Source of the DNA: Draconibacterium orientale
GTDB lineage: Bacteria > Bacteroidota > Bacteroidia > Bacteroidales > Prolixibacteraceae
Length of the DNA stretch: 64,000 bases
Direction: 5' to 3'
Assembly: GCF_000626635.1 (NCBI RefSeq)
Contig: NZ_CP007451.1
Location: 3,516,501 to 3,580,500, forward strand
Shown here: positions 6,276-14,284 of the stretch, in pieces
Numbering within the stretch: the first letter of the stretch is position 1
Layout: each line of letters opens with the position of its first letter
Notes under the pieces: generated by a model
What the model saw: only the letters and a program-made list of their open reading frames with translations
Database searches by the model: none
Told to the model about the DNA's origin: nothing
Made by a program: the position numbers and the translations under genes

Positions 6276-7340
6276 CTAGTTCTTCTCAATCCAGTGAGCG
6301 ATCCAGTCGCCAACTGCCGATGTACTTTGTGCTTGTCCTTCGGCGATGTCTTCAGTAACAAAACCTTCAGCCATTGACGCAGCAACAGCCTCACGAATTA
6401 ATTTCCCTTCATCTTTCAGGTCGAAAGCATATTCAAACATCATTGCAGCCGAAAGGATTGTCGCAATCGGGTTGGCAATGTTTTTACCGGCAGCCTGCGG
6501 GTACGAACCGTGAATTGGCTCGAAAACCGAAGTGTGGATACCAACTGATGCAGAAGGCAACAATCCCAGAGATCCGGTAATTACACTGGCCTCGTCAGTT
6601 AGAATATCGCCGAACATGTTTTCGGTAACCATTACATCAAAATTCTTTGGCCACTGAATAATCTGCATGGCAGCGTTATCCACAAACATGTATTCCGTTT
6701 TGATGTCAGGATAATTTGGTGCCATTTCCTGTGCAACTTCGCGCCACAAACGCGAGCTTTCCAGTACGTTGGCTTTGTCAACCACGGTAAGCTTTTTATT
6801 GCGTTTGGCAGCAAATTCGTATCCCAGTTTCAAAATTCGTTCTACTTCCTCGCGGGTGTAAATACAGGTATCGTAAGCAGTATTTCCATCGTCTTTACGA
6901 CCTTTGTCGCCAAAATACATTCCGCCTGTTAATTCCCGGATGCAAACAAAATCAGCTCCTTCAACCAACTCACGGCGAAGTGGCGATTTGTGCAACAACG
7001 ATTCGAAAGTTTCTACCGGACGTATGTTGGCATACAATCCCAACTTTTTACGCATGGCTAACAATCCCTGCTCAGGACGTACCGGTGCTTTTGGGTTATT
7101 ATCGAATTTTGGATCGCCAATGGCACCAAAAAGCACTGCATCCGATTTCATGCACAACTCGTGTGTTTCTTCCGGATAAGGATCGCCAACTGCGTCGATG
7201 GCACAAGCGCCGGTTAGAGCTTGTTTGTATTCTAATTCGTGATTAAATTTTTGTGCAACAGCTTTCACTGCTTTCATGGCCTGATCAACAATTTCAGGTC
7301 CGATCCCGTCGCCGGGCAATAATGCAATGTTCAGTTTCAT
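6276..7340 (-). CDS. leuB: 3-isopropylmalate dehydrogenase
   Basis: LeuB oxidises and decarboxylates 3-isopropylmalate to 2-ketoisocaproate with NAD+, the third leucine-specific step. The start chosen is the ATG at 7340 ([16 protein letters not shown]), because nine more in-frame codons upstream have no homology. Visible family motifs are the N-terminal [25 protein letters not shown], the metal-binding region [18 protein letters not shown] and FEPIHGSYP. The length of 354 residues is normal. It is the last gene of the leu operon, 49 bp after the DRE-TIM synthase gene. Confidence 0.97.
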
Positions 7341-7389: not shown

Positions 7390-8970
7390 TTATTTTTCGT
7401 TTTTTAATTCTTCCAGTTTTGTGGTGTTAAACTCGTTTTCAATCACGTTCAACATCCTTGTCGTTGCCAAAATTGCGGCAGCATTCTGATCGGGGTGCAG
7501 ACCTTTAGTCTTAAATTCGTGATCGTTTCGCCAGGTAATAACTGTTTCAACCAGGGCATTGGTATTTCCGCCTGGAGGAATCGTTACGACATAGTCAATC
7601 AGTTTAGGAAATACTTTATCTAGGCGTTCGTAAATTTTGCGTAAAGCTTTTACAAAAGCATCGTACTGTCCGTCGCCATCGCTGTATTCTTCGTAAATTT
7701 TTCCATCAATTTCAAGCGATACATTGGCCATTGGGCGCAATCCCATGGTGTAGCTTATCGAGTAATTCACCACTTTTACGCGTTGCTCAAAAAGATCATT
7801 TTCCAACACATCGGCAACAATGTACGGTAATTCATCGCTTGTGATGGTTTCTTTTTGATCGGCCAGTTCAATAACCTTGTCTGTAACTTTTTTCAGCGAT
7901 TCTTTATCCAACTCAATGCCAAGGTCTTCCAGGTTCTTTTTGATATTGGCTTTGCCCGAAGTTTTTCCCAAAGCGTACTGGCGTGTGCGGCCAAAACGTT
8001 CGGGAAGCAAGTCGTTAAAATACAGGTTGTTTTTGCTATCGCCGTCGGCATGAATTCCGCTACATTGCGTAAAAACAAATTCACCAATCAGCGGTTTGTT
8101 GGTCGGGATGCGAATACCGGAAAAAGATTCAACGAGCTTCGAAACCTTATTTAACTGAGCTTCGTTCACCCGTGTTTTCATTTTCAGGTGATCTTTTATG
8201 GTGGCAATCACACTTGATAGGGGAGCATTCCCTGCTCGTTCTCCCAAACCGTTTACTGTGGTGTGCACACAGCGGATTCCGGCTTTCATGGCATGAAAAA
8301 CATTGGCAATGGCCAGGTCGTAATCGTTGTGTGCATGAAAATCGAATTCAACGTCAGGAAAGTTTTCGATCATTTCGTGACAGAAATCGTAGGTCTCGTC
8401 CGGATCAAGGATTCCCAACGTATCGGGAAGCATAAATCGCTCCACCTTTTCGTCTTTCAGGCTCGATATCATATAGTGCACGTAGTTTTTAGAGCTGCGC
8501 ATACCGTTCGACCAGTCTTCGAGGTAAACGTTCACCCTGATTCCCATTTCGTCGGCATAGCAAAGTACTTGTTTGATATCTGCAACATGTTGTTCCGGCG
8601 TTTTCCGCAATTGCTCGGTAACGTGTTTGTACGATCCCTTGCAAAGCAGGTTAATCACTTTTCCTCCGGCTTTGGCAATCCATTCCAGCGAAATTCTACC
8701 ATCAACAAATCCGAGTACCTCAATTTTATCGAGGTGACCTTTTTGTGCGGCCCATTGCATTACCTTTTGGGTGCCTTTGAATTCTCCTTCCGACACACGT
8801 GCCGAGGCTATTTCAATGCGATCCACTTTCACGTCCTCAAGCAGCACCTTGGCTACACTTAGTTTTTCCCCGTCGCTGAACGAAACGCCTGACGTTTGTT
8901 CGCCATCGCGAAGGGTAGTATCCATAATGGTCAGGTGCTTACCTGAAATTTCTACTGCTTTGCCTGTCAT
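7390..8970 (-). CDS. DRE-TIM metallolyase, 2-isopropylmalate/citramalate synthase-like (second copy)
   Basis: The protein has 526 residues: a catalytic TIM barrel (about 12-290), a linker and a LeuA-type C-terminal dimer domain (about 390-510). It carries the acceptor motif [13 protein letters not shown], the metal HxH in [19 protein letters not shown], and ends with [12 protein letters not shown] in the regulatory domain. It is clearly different from LeuA at 11393-12898 in the same operon. Bacteroidota leu operons commonly include this paralog. The likeliest role is (R)-citramalate synthase (acetyl-CoA plus pyruvate), feeding isoleucine synthesis through LeuCD and LeuB, but substrate choice cannot be read with certainty; homocitrate-type activity is an alternative. 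Confidence 0.8.
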
Positions 8971-9130: not shown

Positions 9131-9718
9131 TTATTTTGCTTCAAATTCTGCAATTTGCTCTTTCATTTCAACCAGGTAGTCGATATCATCCAGTCCGTTT
9201 TGCAAACAATGCTTTTTGTACGGATTGATTTCGAAATCAGTCGATTCACCGGTAGCAGTTATCGTGAATTTCTGATTCGGCAGGTCAACCTCAAAAGTCG
9301 ATTCCGGATCTTTTTCAATCTGAACAAAGATTTTCTCAAGGAACTCTGGTGAAACAACAACCGGTAATAGTCCGTTGTTCAATGCGTTTCCTTTAAAGAT
9401 ATCGGCGAAAAAGCTTGAAACCACTACACGGAAACCATAATCGTAGATGGCCCATGCGGCGTGTTCGCGGCTCGATCCGCTACCAAAGTTTTTACCGCCT
9501 ACCAGGATTTTACCTGAATATTTATCGTTGTTTAACGGGAAATCAGCTTTCGGACTTCCGTCGTTTTCATACCGCCAGTCGCGGAAAAGGTTATCGCCAA
9601 ATCCTTTACGTTCCACAGCTTTCAGGAAACGTGCAGGAATGATCTGGTCAGTATCTACATTTTCGTAGGGCAGAGGTACTGCCGGTGAATTTATTTTTGA
9701 AAATTTATCGTATGCCAT
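9131..9718 (-). CDS. leuD: 3-isopropylmalate dehydratase small subunit
   Basis: LeuD pairs with LeuC to isomerise 2-isopropylmalate to 3-isopropylmalate. The 195-residue length is usual. Diagnostic stretches are [16 protein letters not shown] near the start and [20 protein letters not shown], the substrate-binding GSGSSREHA loop of the swivel domain. It lies downstream of leuC after a 140-bp gap filled by a dispersed repeat (9751-9846). Confidence 0.97.
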
Positions 9719-9858: not shown

Positions 9859-11259
9859 CTACATCATCTCTCGAGGATCTGCAATTACACCAGACACGGC
9901 AGCGGCAGCTGCAGTAAGCGGGCTTGCCAACAATGTGCGAGCACCCGGTCCCTGGCGACCTTCAAAGTTTCTGTTCGACGTTGAAACAGAATATTTCCCC
10001 ATTGGTATTTTATCGTCGTTCATTGCCAGACATGCAGAACATCCCGGCTGACGCAACTCAAAACCTGCTTCTTGCAAAATTGGAACAAGTCCTTCGGCTT
10101 CAATTTGGTTTTGTACCTGTTTTGATCCTGGTACCAACCACGCCGTAACGTTATCGGCTTTTTTCTTGCCTTTAACAAAAGCGGCAAATTCGCGGAAATC
10201 CTCAATACGACCGTTAGTACAGCTTCCGAGGAATACAAAATCAACCGGTTTGCCTTTCATGGCATCGCCTTCGTTGTATCCCATGTATTGTAACGATTTC
10301 TGATACGTTGTTTTATCTGTTCCCGACAATCCTTCCGATGTTGGAATAGTTTGCGAAACACCAATTCCCATTCCAGGGTTTGTACCGTAGGTGATCATCG
10401 GCTCAATGTCAGCAGCATCAAAAGTGTATTCCGTATCAAAAACGGCATCTTCGTCTGATTTTAACTCCGCCCATTTTTCCATGGCTTTGTCCCAGTCTTC
10501 ACCTTTTGGCGCAAACTGACGGCCTTTTACATAATTGAAAGTTGTTTCATCCGGAGCGATCATTCCGCCGCGGGCACCACTTTCAATACTCAGGTTACAC
10601 AATGTCATCCGGCCTTCCATTGTAAGGCTGGTGATTGCCGAACCTGCATACTCGATAAAGTGTCCGGTACCACCACTGGTCGATATTTTAGAAATAATGT
10701 ACAGTGCGATATCTTTTGCCGTTACACCTTTATCTAAAGTTCCGTTAACGGTGATGCGCATTTTCTTTGGTTTCGGCTGCATAATACACTGGCTGGCCAA
10801 AACCATTTCCACCTCGCTGGTACCAATTCCAAAAGCAATGGCACCAAAAGCTCCGTGGGTAGAAGTGTGGCTGTCGCCACAAACGATGGTCATTCCCGGC
10901 TGGGTTAATCCCATTTCGGGGCCGATAATGTGTACCACGCCGTGACCTTCAGTTCCCAGTCCGTGATAAACGATACCGTTCTCATCGCAGTTCTTTTTCA
11001 GCATGTCAACCTGGTTGCGCGAAAGTTCGTCTTTAATCGACATGTGCTGGTTGATAGTAGGAACGTTATGGTCGGGAGTAGCTGTAGTTTGATCCGGACG
11101 ATAAACTTTCAATCCGCGGTTTTTCAATCCTAAGAAGGCCACCGGACTCGTTACTTCGTGAATAAAGTGACGGTCGATATACAATACATTTGGGCCACCT
11201 TCGACCTGTTTCACCACGTGTGCATCCCAAATTTTATCAAATAATGTTTTTGCTGTCAT
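9859..11259 (-). CDS. leuC: 3-isopropylmalate dehydratase large subunit
   Basis: This is the catalytic subunit carrying the [4Fe-4S] cluster for isopropylmalate isomerisation. The cluster ligands are visible as FLGSCTNGR and CSAC in [12 protein letters not shown]. Other landmarks are [12 protein letters not shown] at the start, [22 protein letters not shown] and [12 protein letters not shown] near the end. The start is set at ATG 11259 ([11 protein letters not shown]); an upstream in-frame extension of 10 codons is not family-like. At 466 residues the length is normal. It is the second structural gene of the operon, between leuA and leuD. Confidence 0.97.
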
Positions 11260-11304
11260 GATTTCTTTCCATCTATTATATGGATTCAACTTTTATTCTT
11301 TCAA

Positions 11305-11392: not shown

Positions 11393-12898
11393 TTACACCG
11401 CTGCCGGCAGTTTGTTAATGGCATCCAAAAAGGCCTCAACCGAAGCCGTAATAATGTCGGTGTGAGCACCAAAACCATGGTAGATCGCATCTTCGTATTC
11501 CACCTGCATGTGTACTTTACCAATGTCATCGCTACCGCGGGTAATTGCTTGTACCAGGAATTCCTCGATAACTACCTGACGGTGAATAATCTTTTTAACC
11601 GCTTTAATTGCTGCATCAACCGGACCGTTACCATCAGAAGTGGCATCGAATTTCTCACCTGAAATGTTCAGGCGTACAGTTGCCATTGGTTTCAGGCTCT
11701 TTCCGGTAACAACTTGCAAGTAATCCAATTTAATGCGGTGTTCTTTACGTGTTGCATCGCCAACCAACAACGCGATATCGTCATCACGAATATCTTTTTT
11801 CTTGTCGGCCAGTTTCAGGAACTCTTCGTAAACCTCGTCAAGTTTTTCTTTATCCAGCTCAAAGCCTAATAACTCCAAACGGTGTTTCAACGCAGCGCGA
11901 CCACTTCGTGCAGTCAATAAAATTGCCGATTCGTTGATGCCCACGTCTGTTGGATCCATAATTTCGTAGTTCTCGCGGTTTTTCAATACACCATCCTGGT
12001 GAATACCCGACGAGTGGGCAAATGCGTTACGTCCAACAACTGCTTTGTTTGGCTGCACCGGCATGTTCATCAAAGTAGAAACCAATCGGCTTGTACCGTA
12101 AATTTTCTTGGTATTTACACCTGTTTCAATTCCCAGTGCTTTGTAATGTGTTTTTAATGTCATTACCACCTCTTCCAACGAGGTGTTTCCGGCGCGTTCG
12201 CCAATTCCGTTAATGGTAACCTCTGCCTGGCGGGCACCATTCAGGATTCCCGAAACAGTGTTGGCAGTTGCCATTCCCAAATCGTTATGACAGTGTGTTG
12301 AAATAATCGCTTTATGAATATTTGGTACGTTGTCCATCAGGTATTTGATTTTTGCACCAAATTCGTGTGGCAAAGTGTAACCGGTAGTATCCGGAATATT
12401 TACAACTGTAGCTCCGGCTTTAATTACCGCCTCTACCACGCGCGCCAGGTATTCGTTTTCGGTACGGCCGGCATCTTCGGCGTAAAACTCTACATCTTCA
12501 ACGTATTTTTTTGCGTATTTCACGGCCTCTACACCACGCTCGATAATTGCATCGGGATTGGAGTTGAGTTTGTGGTAAATATGAAAATCAGATGTTCCGA
12601 TTCCGGTGTGGATACGACCTTTTTTGGCGTACTTGAGTGATTCGGCTGCAACATCAATATCTTTTTGTACTGCGCGGGTTAAGGCTGTAATTGTTGGCCA
12701 TGTAACCGCTTTCGAAATCTCTACTACCGATTCAAAATCGCCGGGGCTCGAAATGGGGAATCCTGCTTCAATAACATCAACTCCCAATTCCTGCAATGCT
12801 TTGGCAACTTCAATCTTTTCTACCGTGTTCAACTGGCAACCGGGGACCTGTTCTCCGTCCCTCAAAGTTGTGTCGAAAATGTAAAGTCTGTCGCTCAT
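11393..12898 (-). CDS. leuA: 2-isopropylmalate synthase
   Basis: LeuA condenses acetyl-CoA with 2-ketoisovalerate, the committed step of leucine synthesis. The 501-residue protein has the catalytic barrel with [15 protein letters not shown], the metal motif [15 protein letters not shown] and [15 protein letters not shown], then a C-terminal allosteric domain (about 385-500) that in relatives binds leucine. It is the first structural gene of the operon. A leader peptide and terminator-antiterminator sequences precede it (12951-13087), so expression is probably controlled by attenuation. Confidence 0.97.
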
Positions 12899-12950: not shown

Positions 12951-12981
12951 AAAAAAGCCATCCTCAAGGTGAGAATGGCTT
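12951..12981 (-). terminator. Attenuator terminator hairpin of the leu operon
   Basis: On the minus strand AAGCCATTCTC (12981-12971) pairs with GAGGATGGCTT (12965-12955) through 11 base pairs with one G-U, closed by a 5-base loop and followed by a run of T (to 12951). It stands 53 bases before the leuA start and 35 bases after the stop codon of the leader peptide. Its 5' arm can alternatively pair with the segment at 13018-13010. Confidence 0.85.
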
Positions 12982-13015
12982 CTTTATTCCAATATCGTAA
13001 ATCAACATACCATTC

Positions 13016-13087
13016 TCATTTCTGTCTTGTTAGAAGAAGAATACCAATGAGAAGGTTAAGAATAGAAATGTTGATATTTTTTGTCAT
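13016..13087 (-). CDS. Leucine operon leader peptide
   Basis: The frame ATG 13087 to TGA 13016 encodes 23 residues beginning MTKNINISILNLLIGILLLT. It has six leucines (positions 10, 12, 13, 17-19) and five isoleucines. Such a peptide has no role but to stall a ribosome when charged tRNA is scarce. Its position ahead of a terminator and leuA, and the overlap of its stop with the antiterminator segment, support the assignment. A weak -7-like element (CATATTTG, 13112-13105) lies just upstream. The mixture of Ile and Leu codons suggests it also responds to isoleucine, which would fit a citramalate branch in the operon. Confidence 0.8.
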   Translation of the reverse strand: MTKNINISILNLLIGILLLTRQK

Positions 13088-13207
13088 TTGCTTATGATTT
13101 GCTGCAAATATGAAAATATTATTTTAAAATGAAAATGAAATGGCCATTTTTTCTTGAAAAAAGAAGAATAATACTGAAATGTCTGTAATGCGTTAACATT
13201 GAAGTAA

Positions 13208-13459: not shown

Positions 13460-13492
13460 AGACCTTCAAGGTTTTTAAAACCTTGAAGGTCT
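13460..13492. repeat. Perfect 33-bp palindrome (GACCTTCAAGGTTTT family)
   Basis: The arms AGACCTTCAAGGTTTT and AAAACCTTGAAGGTCT are exact complements around one base. A shortened relative, ACCTTAAAGGTTT-TCTG-AAACCTTTAAGGT, lies at 14406-14435. Both flank the small lipoprotein gene 13793-14284. Confidence 0.7.
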
Positions 13493-13792: not shown

Positions 13793-14284
13793 ATGAAACC
13801 AAAGATTTTAAAACTAAGTTTAGTATTCCTACTTTTTGCCTTAATTGGTGTAAGCTGTCAGGATGAAGAGGAATTACCACCATTAAAAGACAAACAACTT
13901 ACTGTAAGCGAAATAAAATCGCAGGGCTGTAAAGACCACCTAAAATCAACTGATACTGAACGGTATATTGAACTTAAGGCCGAAGGAGAAAATCGCCTTT
14001 GGGTTAAGTTTGTTAATGCCAGATTTAATTGTTGCCCGGGAGAGATTACTACTAATGCTTTTATCAAAAATGATACACTAAAAGTTGTATTTATTGAGCA
14101 ATATCCAGGTGGTTGTAATTGTATTTGTGATTTTGACCTTGAATGTGTAATCGACTCAATGGAAAACAGGAAATATAATATCGGAGTTTATGCACACAGG
14201 TCAATATATGAGGAGCCAAATTCAAAATTTACTTTTAATTATTCTAAAGGATTAGACACTACAATAAAAATTTCAAATAATTAA
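13793..14284 (+). CDS. Small lipoprotein of unknown function
   Basis: The protein has 163 residues with a lipoprotein signal (LIGVSC lipobox, residues 18-23) followed by an acidic stretch DEEELPP. The mature part has five or more cysteines (FNCCPG, GGCNCICDFDLEC), suggesting disulfides or a metal site in the periplasm. No family recognised. It is flanked by palindromic repeats on both sides and has no operon partner. Confidence 0.7.
   Translation: MKPKILKLSLVFLLFALIGVSCQDEEELPPLKDKQLTVSEIKSQGCKDHLKSTDTERYIELKAEGENRLWVKFVNARFNCCPGEITTNAFIKNDTLKVVFIEQYPGGCNCICDFDLECVIDSMENRKYNIGVYAHRSIYEEPNSKFTFNYSKGLDTTIKISNN

Follow-up and report, generated by a model that had tools for sequence, protein, structure and literature searches.

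The DNA analyzed here, referred to as the window, is a stretch of 64,000 nucleotides from Draconibacterium orientale (contig NZ_CP007451.1, positions 3,516,501 to 3,580,500), whose genome of 5.13 Mb consists of a single contig. Its minus strand carries five genes in the order leuA-leuC-leuD-cimA-like-leuB. The gene for 2-isopropylmalate synthase, leuA (11393..12898), matches NF002086 with 749 bits; leuC (9859..11289, true start uncertain) and leuD (9131..9718), for the large and small subunits of isopropylmalate dehydratase, match NF004016 with 738 and NF002458 with 244 bits; and leuB (6276..7340), for 3-isopropylmalate dehydrogenase, matches TIGR00169 with 456 bits, each over the cut-off. About 2.5 kb downstream of leuA lies a cimA-like gene (7390..8970) for a probable (R)-citramalate synthase of the isoleucine route, which has NF042433 as its best match, with 673 bits and twice the score of the next family, yet below the cut-off of 950. 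A CimA-like gene is present in 108 of 120 genomes of the family, none of them above the model cut-off, and shares the contig of leuA in 99 of these 108. Since the source genome also encodes a threonine deaminase-like protein, itself below the cut-off of its model, citramalate may not be the sole route to isoleucine.

Upstream of leuA, at 13087-12951 of the minus strand, lie the components of a candidate attenuator. The leader ORF (13016..13087) starts with ATG at 13087, comprises 23 codons plus TGA (13018-13016), and reads MTKNINISILNLLIGILLLTRQK from the minus strand, in agreement with the 23-residue peptide of six Leu and five Ile announced in a preliminary description of this DNA. Codons 12-19 (13031..13054), LLIGILLL (CTT CTC ATT GGT ATT CTT CTT CTA), are assigned as its control block from the conservation of Leu, Ile, and Val relative to the stop codon, from which four spacer codons separate the block in the window sequence. 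A probable -7 promoter element, CATATTTG (13105..13112), precedes the leader and follows the consensus TAnnTTTG (PMC9723704).

The RNA can be divided into four segments followed by a T-run. Segment 1 (13057..13073, codons 5-11) is the partner of an extended segment 2 in the minimum free energy fold, a pairing largely kept among 61 relatives. Segment 2, TGAGAATGGTATGTTG (13003..13018), was delimited from the sequence and the alignment of relatives; the TGA forms its first three bases, so that the stop codon does overlap it as previously claimed. The same alignment defines segment 3, AAGCCATTCTCA (12970..12981), as the 5' arm of the terminator as well as the antiterminator partner, and segment 4, TGAGGATGGCTT (12955..12966), as the 3' arm. 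The T-run (12951..12956) is the place at which a terminated leader RNA is predicted to end; T-runs occupy the matching place in the aligned relatives and are broken in two rows. Two measures of the preliminary description needed correction: the T-run indeed extends to 12951, but is followed by 52 rather than 53 bases before the leuA ATG at 12898, and the 3:4 hairpin exists, with 12 bp including one G-U (AAGCCATTCTCA/TGAGGATGGCTT) in place of the 11 bp given. Further upstream, between the leader and a divergent ORF at 13793, we also noticed a perfect 15-bp inverted repeat, AGACCTTCAAGGTTTTTAAAACCTTGAAGGTCT (13460-13492).

Conservation of the leader in the family

In order to compare relatives, leuA was sought in 120 genomes of the family and found in 115. 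Upstream regions were fetched from 110 of these, and after setting aside four regions shorter than 300 nt, a family set of 106 regions with at least 300 nt was retained. A motif search gave 71 leaders, to which four were added, and three leader starts were reassigned to an internal ATG. Altogether, leader and terminator are present in 75 of the 106 regions and in 16 of 23 genera, in an all-or-none fashion that leaves no genus mixed. The closest named leuA relatives belong to Draconibacterium, Maribellus, Mariniphaga, Sunxiuqinia, and several Prolixibacteraceae records, in line with Prolixibacteraceae as the family named in the preliminary description. A strong terminator with an ORF of at least 40% Leu, Ile, and Val just ahead of it was found in 72 of the 106 real regions vs. 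none of 1060 dinucleotide shuffles, and every one of the 72 regions with a strong terminator also carries such a branched-chain-rich ORF immediately before it. Conservation extends to the geometry of the leader: position -5 from the stop is Leu, Ile, or Val in all 75 leaders, and the Leu/Ile run ends four codons ahead of the stop in 52 of them.

In each of the 31 leaderless regions, an ORF of 90 or more codons on the strand of leuA ends 5-277 nt before this gene, an arrangement also seen in four of the 75 regions with a leader; in three of the 31, this ORF is a fragment of ilvC, ilvN, or again ilvC. In six of the seven leaderless genera, ilvD lies upstream of leuA on the same contig. As a gene directly precedes leuA in the leaderless regions, the attenuator appears to be missing wherever leuA occupies an internal position in an ilv-leu cluster, although four further genera have ilvD near leuA and nevertheless keep the leuA leader. 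An RNA model, built from an alignment of 46 of the 75 leaders, was searched against 13 leaderless genomes: seven have a match just upstream of a located ilvD, three a match without a located ilvD, and three no match, with nearly all matches weak (E about 1e-5 to 0.008).

The start regions are equally characteristic. In 72 of the 75 family leaders, the distance from the end of a TATTTG-type box to the leader start is 16-26 nt; any such match is found in 73, one of these at 4 nt from the start. The region around the start is A-rich, and none of the 75 leaders has a Shine-Dalgarno 4-mer (GGAG, GAGG, or AGGA) at -14 to -4, while 18 have one anywhere in -20 to -4. Shine-Dalgarno sequences are reported not to be recognized by the ribosomes of Bacteroidia (PMC6847099; PMC9976891).

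RNA pairings and the predicted switch

The leader region of the window folds at -41.3 kcal/mol (z = -5.9), and none of 200 shuffles is equally stable. Its pairings were followed through a structure alignment of 61 of the 75 leaders, from which close duplicates and one divergent short leader were omitted. Segments 3 and 4 are paired in 99.3% of the cells of this alignment, and two-sided changes occur in 13 cells vs. 3.0 in shuffles, spread over three pairs; the predicted terminator thus covaries in relatives. A simple terminator scan of the window did not list this hairpin, which we think is due to its stem rule running on into the T-run.

The antiterminator pairing proposed earlier, 9 bp and perfect, stands as described, with TGAGAATGG (13018-13010) against CCATTCTCA (12978-12970). 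It is paired in 99.6% of cells vs. 35-46% when the register is slid, and its duplex energy in family leaders is -13.4 vs. -6.9 kcal/mol for shuffled sequences; in 67 of 72 leaders, no more than 10 of 200 shuffles match the real duplex. No two-sided change was found for 2:3 in the 61 aligned leaders, which makes it too invariant for a covariation test. Segments 2 and 3 have a core (TGAGAATGG, CCATTCTC) that is almost constant across the family, plausibly because each segment must fit two partners (1 and 3 in the case of segment 2, 2 and 4 in that of segment 3), so that changes would be locked.

For 1:2, the letters of the 8-bp pairing given previously are correct (TTCTCATT at 13053-13046, AATGAGAA at 13020-13013), but folding prefers a longer pairing of CAACAT..CTATTCTTA (13073-13057) with TGAGAATGG.ATGTTG (13018-13003). 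This longer version, which involves codons 5-11, is better supported by the fold and is largely retained by relatives, and the 8-bp version was set aside. It is paired in 81.9% of cells (79.2% in shuffles, 37-49% when slid). Two-sided cells number 31 vs. 14.3 in shuffles, with none of 500 shuffles as high, yet the register slid by +1 also gives 29, and the five pairs with two-sided changes do not exceed the shuffles (4.2; 191 of 500 as high) or the slid registers (3-6). Of the 61 rows, 23-30 lack the outer pairs and 31 lack one particular inner pair. The support for 1:2 therefore comes mainly from the frequency of its retention and in part from covariation. The preliminary description had suggested checking the Leu/Ile codons and the three pairings against relatives; the leader proves to be conserved (75 of 106) and 3:4 covaries, whereas 1:2 does so in part and 2:3 is too invariant. 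Its central reading, a leader-peptide attenuator ahead of the leucine operon, is supported by this conservation and by the covariation of the terminator.

Folding with a masking ribosome was then used to model the switch. The mean probability of 2:3 is 0.91 for an A site seven codons ahead of the stop, only 0.59 at five codons ahead, the position of the last control codon, and 0.01 once the ribosome has reached the stop. In the ribosome-free short transcript the mean is 0.45; the window's own sequence gives 0.05, and 32 of the 75 relatives still prefer 2:3 (P > 0.5). The predicted folding hence switches with ribosome position in partial agreement with an attenuator. For the full leader at equilibrium, the terminator dominates every ribosome state (P of 3:4 0.87-0.90), which implies that the switch must be a kinetic one.

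On these grounds, the element is very probably a ribosome-mediated transcription attenuator, acting through a leader peptide on the leuA-leuC-leuD-cimA-leuB operon. Transcription would begin shortly past the box at 13112-13105, and a ribosome would load at the A-rich start, free of a Shine-Dalgarno sequence, and translate the 23-codon leader close behind RNA polymerase. With plentiful charged Leu- and Ile-tRNA, the ribosome would reach the TGA and cover segment 2, permitting 3:4 to form and transcription to terminate near 12951. With scarce Leu- or Ile-tRNA, it would stall within codons 12-19 and block segment 1; 2:3 would then form and transcription read through into the operon. Without any ribosome, 1:2 would form and 3:4 terminate. 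The usual dimensions of a ribosome leave segment 2 free when it stalls in the Leu/Ile run and cover it when it stands at the stop. Leader translation, termination, the joint action of Leu and Ile, and the proximity of ribosome and polymerase are all inferred from sequence features.

Leader codons and alternative readings

The composition of the leaders bears directly on what is sensed. The 75 leu leaders of the family contain 25.7% Leu, 24.6% Ile, and 1.1% Val, while leaders before other operons, in sets chosen by composition, show 17.3% Leu, 17.6% Ile, and 21.4% Val at ilvD, 26.2% His at hisG, and 16.5% Trp at trpE. A repeat without this filter gave 1.1% Val at leu, 19.2% Val at ilvD, 20.1% His at hisG, and 14.3% Trp at trpE; the ilvD set covered 29 of 30 loci and the trpE set 26 of 28, the others having too little upstream sequence. 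Since the leaders had been selected for Leu, Ile, and Val jointly, the near absence of Val at leu is the strongest argument for Ile being intended. A reason for the Ile codons is offered by the CimA-like isoleucine gene, and the composition fits a leucine operon that also holds such a gene. We infer a dual sensor, in which the shortage of either amino acid alone might open the switch.

A leucine-only attenuator would be the most serious alternative. Under this reading, the Ile codons (AUU), together with CUN, are present because they complement segment 2 (GAGAAU), and isoleucine is not sensed. Segment 1 is indeed made of leader codons, Ile codons 7 and 9 included, and ATT, which provides the letters for pairing with segment 2, makes up 313 of 395 Ile codons. 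The control block, however, lies outside the preferred 1:2 stem and still has Ile in 57 of 75 leaders at -8, 37 at -10, and 35 at -11, with interchange of Leu and Ile and almost no Val. Against the pairing argument also speak the CimA-like gene within the operon and 24 leuA leaders of more distant named loci, which keep Ile at 19.2% and Val at 2.5%, although three of these 24 fall under the threshold of the looser rule applied to named loci. We consider a leucine-only sensor possible but rather doubtful.

Other explanations question the attenuator itself. The dominance of the terminator in every state at equilibrium would suit a terminator that is constitutive or controlled by a protein or ligand, with the ORF being incidental. 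This is very unlikely in view of the branched-chain-rich ORF ahead of each strong terminator, the stop codon and segment 2 being locked together in most leaders, and a composition that tracks the operon product at four operons. Similarly, the leader could encode a functional small hydrophobic peptide, active in the membrane or in trans, with RNA pairing as a secondary matter: the 23-residue leaders are strongly conserved (Gly15 in 39, Asn6 in 35, and Ser8 in 35 of 40), the peptide could form a short membrane helix, and a trans-acting attenuator peptide, peTrpL, is known (PMC7298713). Yet Leu and Ile are freely swapped, the conserved N-I-S-I-L codons fall in segment 1, leuA has no leader in the seven genera where another gene directly precedes it, and distant loci change the sequence while keeping its Leu/Ile content, all of which makes a peptide function highly improbable. 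Finally, an action on leuA translation or RNA stability has hardly any likelihood: the 3' hairpin has a T-run, and the gap between the end of this T-run and the leuA ATG varies from 7 to 216 nt (median 51), a pattern that suits a terminator rather than a start-site blocker.

Other leaders, breadth, and known systems

Besides the leuA attenuator, comparable leaders were observed at other operons of the source genome. Before trpE (1011034) lie two Trp leader ORFs in series, MQKINTIWLPWWGLLT and MRTNNNIWWWHSNFLQIS, each with its own terminator. Such tandem Trp leaders are present in 12 of 26 family regions from nine genera; in 11 of them, 11-33 nt separate the first terminator from the next ATG (88 nt in the remaining one), a gap that leaves little room for a promoter. 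The duplex test did not support an antiterminator at trp, with four of 22 leaders passing. Upstream of ilvD (4040585-4040697, minus strand), an Ile/Val/Leu leader, MKVLSINIIVLLVVILGNTEKGH, precedes a terminator and has a strong antiterminator, unmatched by any of 200 shuffles; 20 of 26 family ilvD leaders pass the duplex test. Two serial branched-chain leaders with terminators precede ilvD in five of 29 regions. At hisG (3994494, minus strand), a His leader, MTVITLHHGHHWKNQPSGRL, is likewise followed by a terminator. In the family, the antiterminator is supported by the duplex test for 19 of 24 his leaders, and under the unfiltered rule four of 26 hisG regions contain two units of terminator and ORF. 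At four loci of another family (f47), Thr/Ile leaders such as MTINNTTIITIITTGINFGGR, much like the thr leader of Escherichia coli, precede an aspartokinase-like gene, and at six loci branched-chain leaders with terminators precede genes resembling branched-chain aminotransferases by their first residues. No Thr leader was found at thrA in the window's family (20 regions, 19 with an identifiable start); the sole Thr/Ile candidate there was taken for the end of the upstream gene and rejected.

Beyond the family, 38 of 99 genomes in an order sample had leuA, and 27 upstream regions were read. A strong terminator with a preceding ORF was found in 14 of the 27, eight of these ORFs having at least 40% Leu, Ile, and Val, and the antiterminator was better than shuffles in six of the 14, which is weaker than within the family. 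A looser rule finds a leader in 42 of 77 named loci, namely 21 close relatives and 21 more distant loci that include gut genera. The distant leuA leaders come from records of Bacteroides, Parabacteroides, Phocaeicola, Mediterranea, and Prevotella, among others; further records from these same genera have none. In a class sample, 35 of 159 genomes had leuA at the limit used; of the 27 regions looked at, three carry a leader, all of them from the window's order, so that no leuA leader was found outside that order. The RNA model matches 19 of 395 genomes of the class, at leuA, ilvD, aspartokinase-like, and aminotransferase-like genes (by first residues), a few matches being chance-like, and a plasmid collection gave no leader match. 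Rfam release 15 has no family at gathering score on either strand of the window, T-box and amino-acid riboswitches included, nor in 20 loci with leu, ilv, his, thr-like, and ilvE-like leaders. Its best weak match, STnc150 (29.6 of 60 bits), was rejected as a chance effect of AU-rich composition.

We see evenly balanced prospects for the broader proposal that these leaders form an order-wide set of leu, ilv, his, and trp attenuators missed by Rfam, in which the leu type would lack a Shine-Dalgarno sequence, reach gut Bacteroides, and sense Leu or Ile to suit a leu-cimA operon, and in which trp and some ilv leaders would be tandem. If true, two attenuators in series, as at trp and some ilv operons, would multiply their effects, and ribosome and RNA polymerase would be closely coupled in Bacteroidota. 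The leuA element is of interest as a well-formed attenuator with wide conservation among bacteria whose ribosomes do not respond to Shine-Dalgarno sequences. Attenuation demands fast initiation on a very short 5' end and a ribosome that paces RNA polymerase; the leader therefore makes initiation speed and coupling in Bacteroidota directly testable. Similar leuA leaders occur in some records of Bacteroides, Parabacteroides, and Phocaeicola, which are accessible to genetics and term-seq. The presence of Leu and Ile without Val would also provide a clean case of leader codons that track a leucine-isoleucine operon.

The leu, ilv, trp, and his attenuators of enterobacteria combine a short ORF rich in codons of the product, a stop codon in segment 2, mutually exclusive 1:2, 2:3, and 3:4 pairings, and a terminator with a T-run, and the leader described here shares these features, with 1:2 as a predicted and partly supported pairing. 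Unlike its enterobacterial counterparts, it has no Shine-Dalgarno 4-mer at -14 to -4 (none in the family leaders), a probable promoter box that usually lies only 17-22 nt before the start codon, Leu and Ile codons together, segments 2 and 3 that are nearly invariant over the family, and no Rfam family at gathering score. Attenuators of amino-acid operons were reportedly predicted in some Bacteroidetes/Chlorobi by Vitreschak et al. in 2004. The transcriptome of Flavobacterium psychrophilum is described as strongly hinting that leader peptides attenuate amino-acid operons, with structured elements at pheA and hisG that have no Rfam hits (PMC9723704). This is a likeness in another member of Bacteroidota, although the section on attenuation in that report does not name leuA. 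The remark of the preliminary description that attenuation has mostly been studied in Proteobacteria accordingly needs qualification, since for the phylum the idea is not new (PMC9723704). Small ORFs reminiscent of attenuation leaders are also mentioned for Bacteroides (PMC7366714). A search of the open-access literature retrieved no paper on this leuA element.

Among more distant systems, the ilv-leu operon of Staphylococcus aureus is reported to have a Leu-rich attenuator peptide, supported by a suppressor mutation in a Leu codon (PMC5794164). It resembles the present case in its branched-chain-rich leader, with Leu and three Ile codons, and its terminator; it differs in belonging to Firmicutes and in acting at ilvD of an ilv-leu operon, beside CodY (PMC5794164), whereas the leader here precedes leuA of a separate leu-cimA operon. 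The tandem trp and ilv leaders may be compared with the Salmonella mgtCBR operon, reported to have tandem attenuators with two short ORFs in one leader region (PMC3641672); mgtCBR is, however, a Mg2+ and virulence operon, while the trp and ilv pairs carry the codons of their own product twice. Overall, the mechanism is classical, and the leuA element is very probably a further instance of it.
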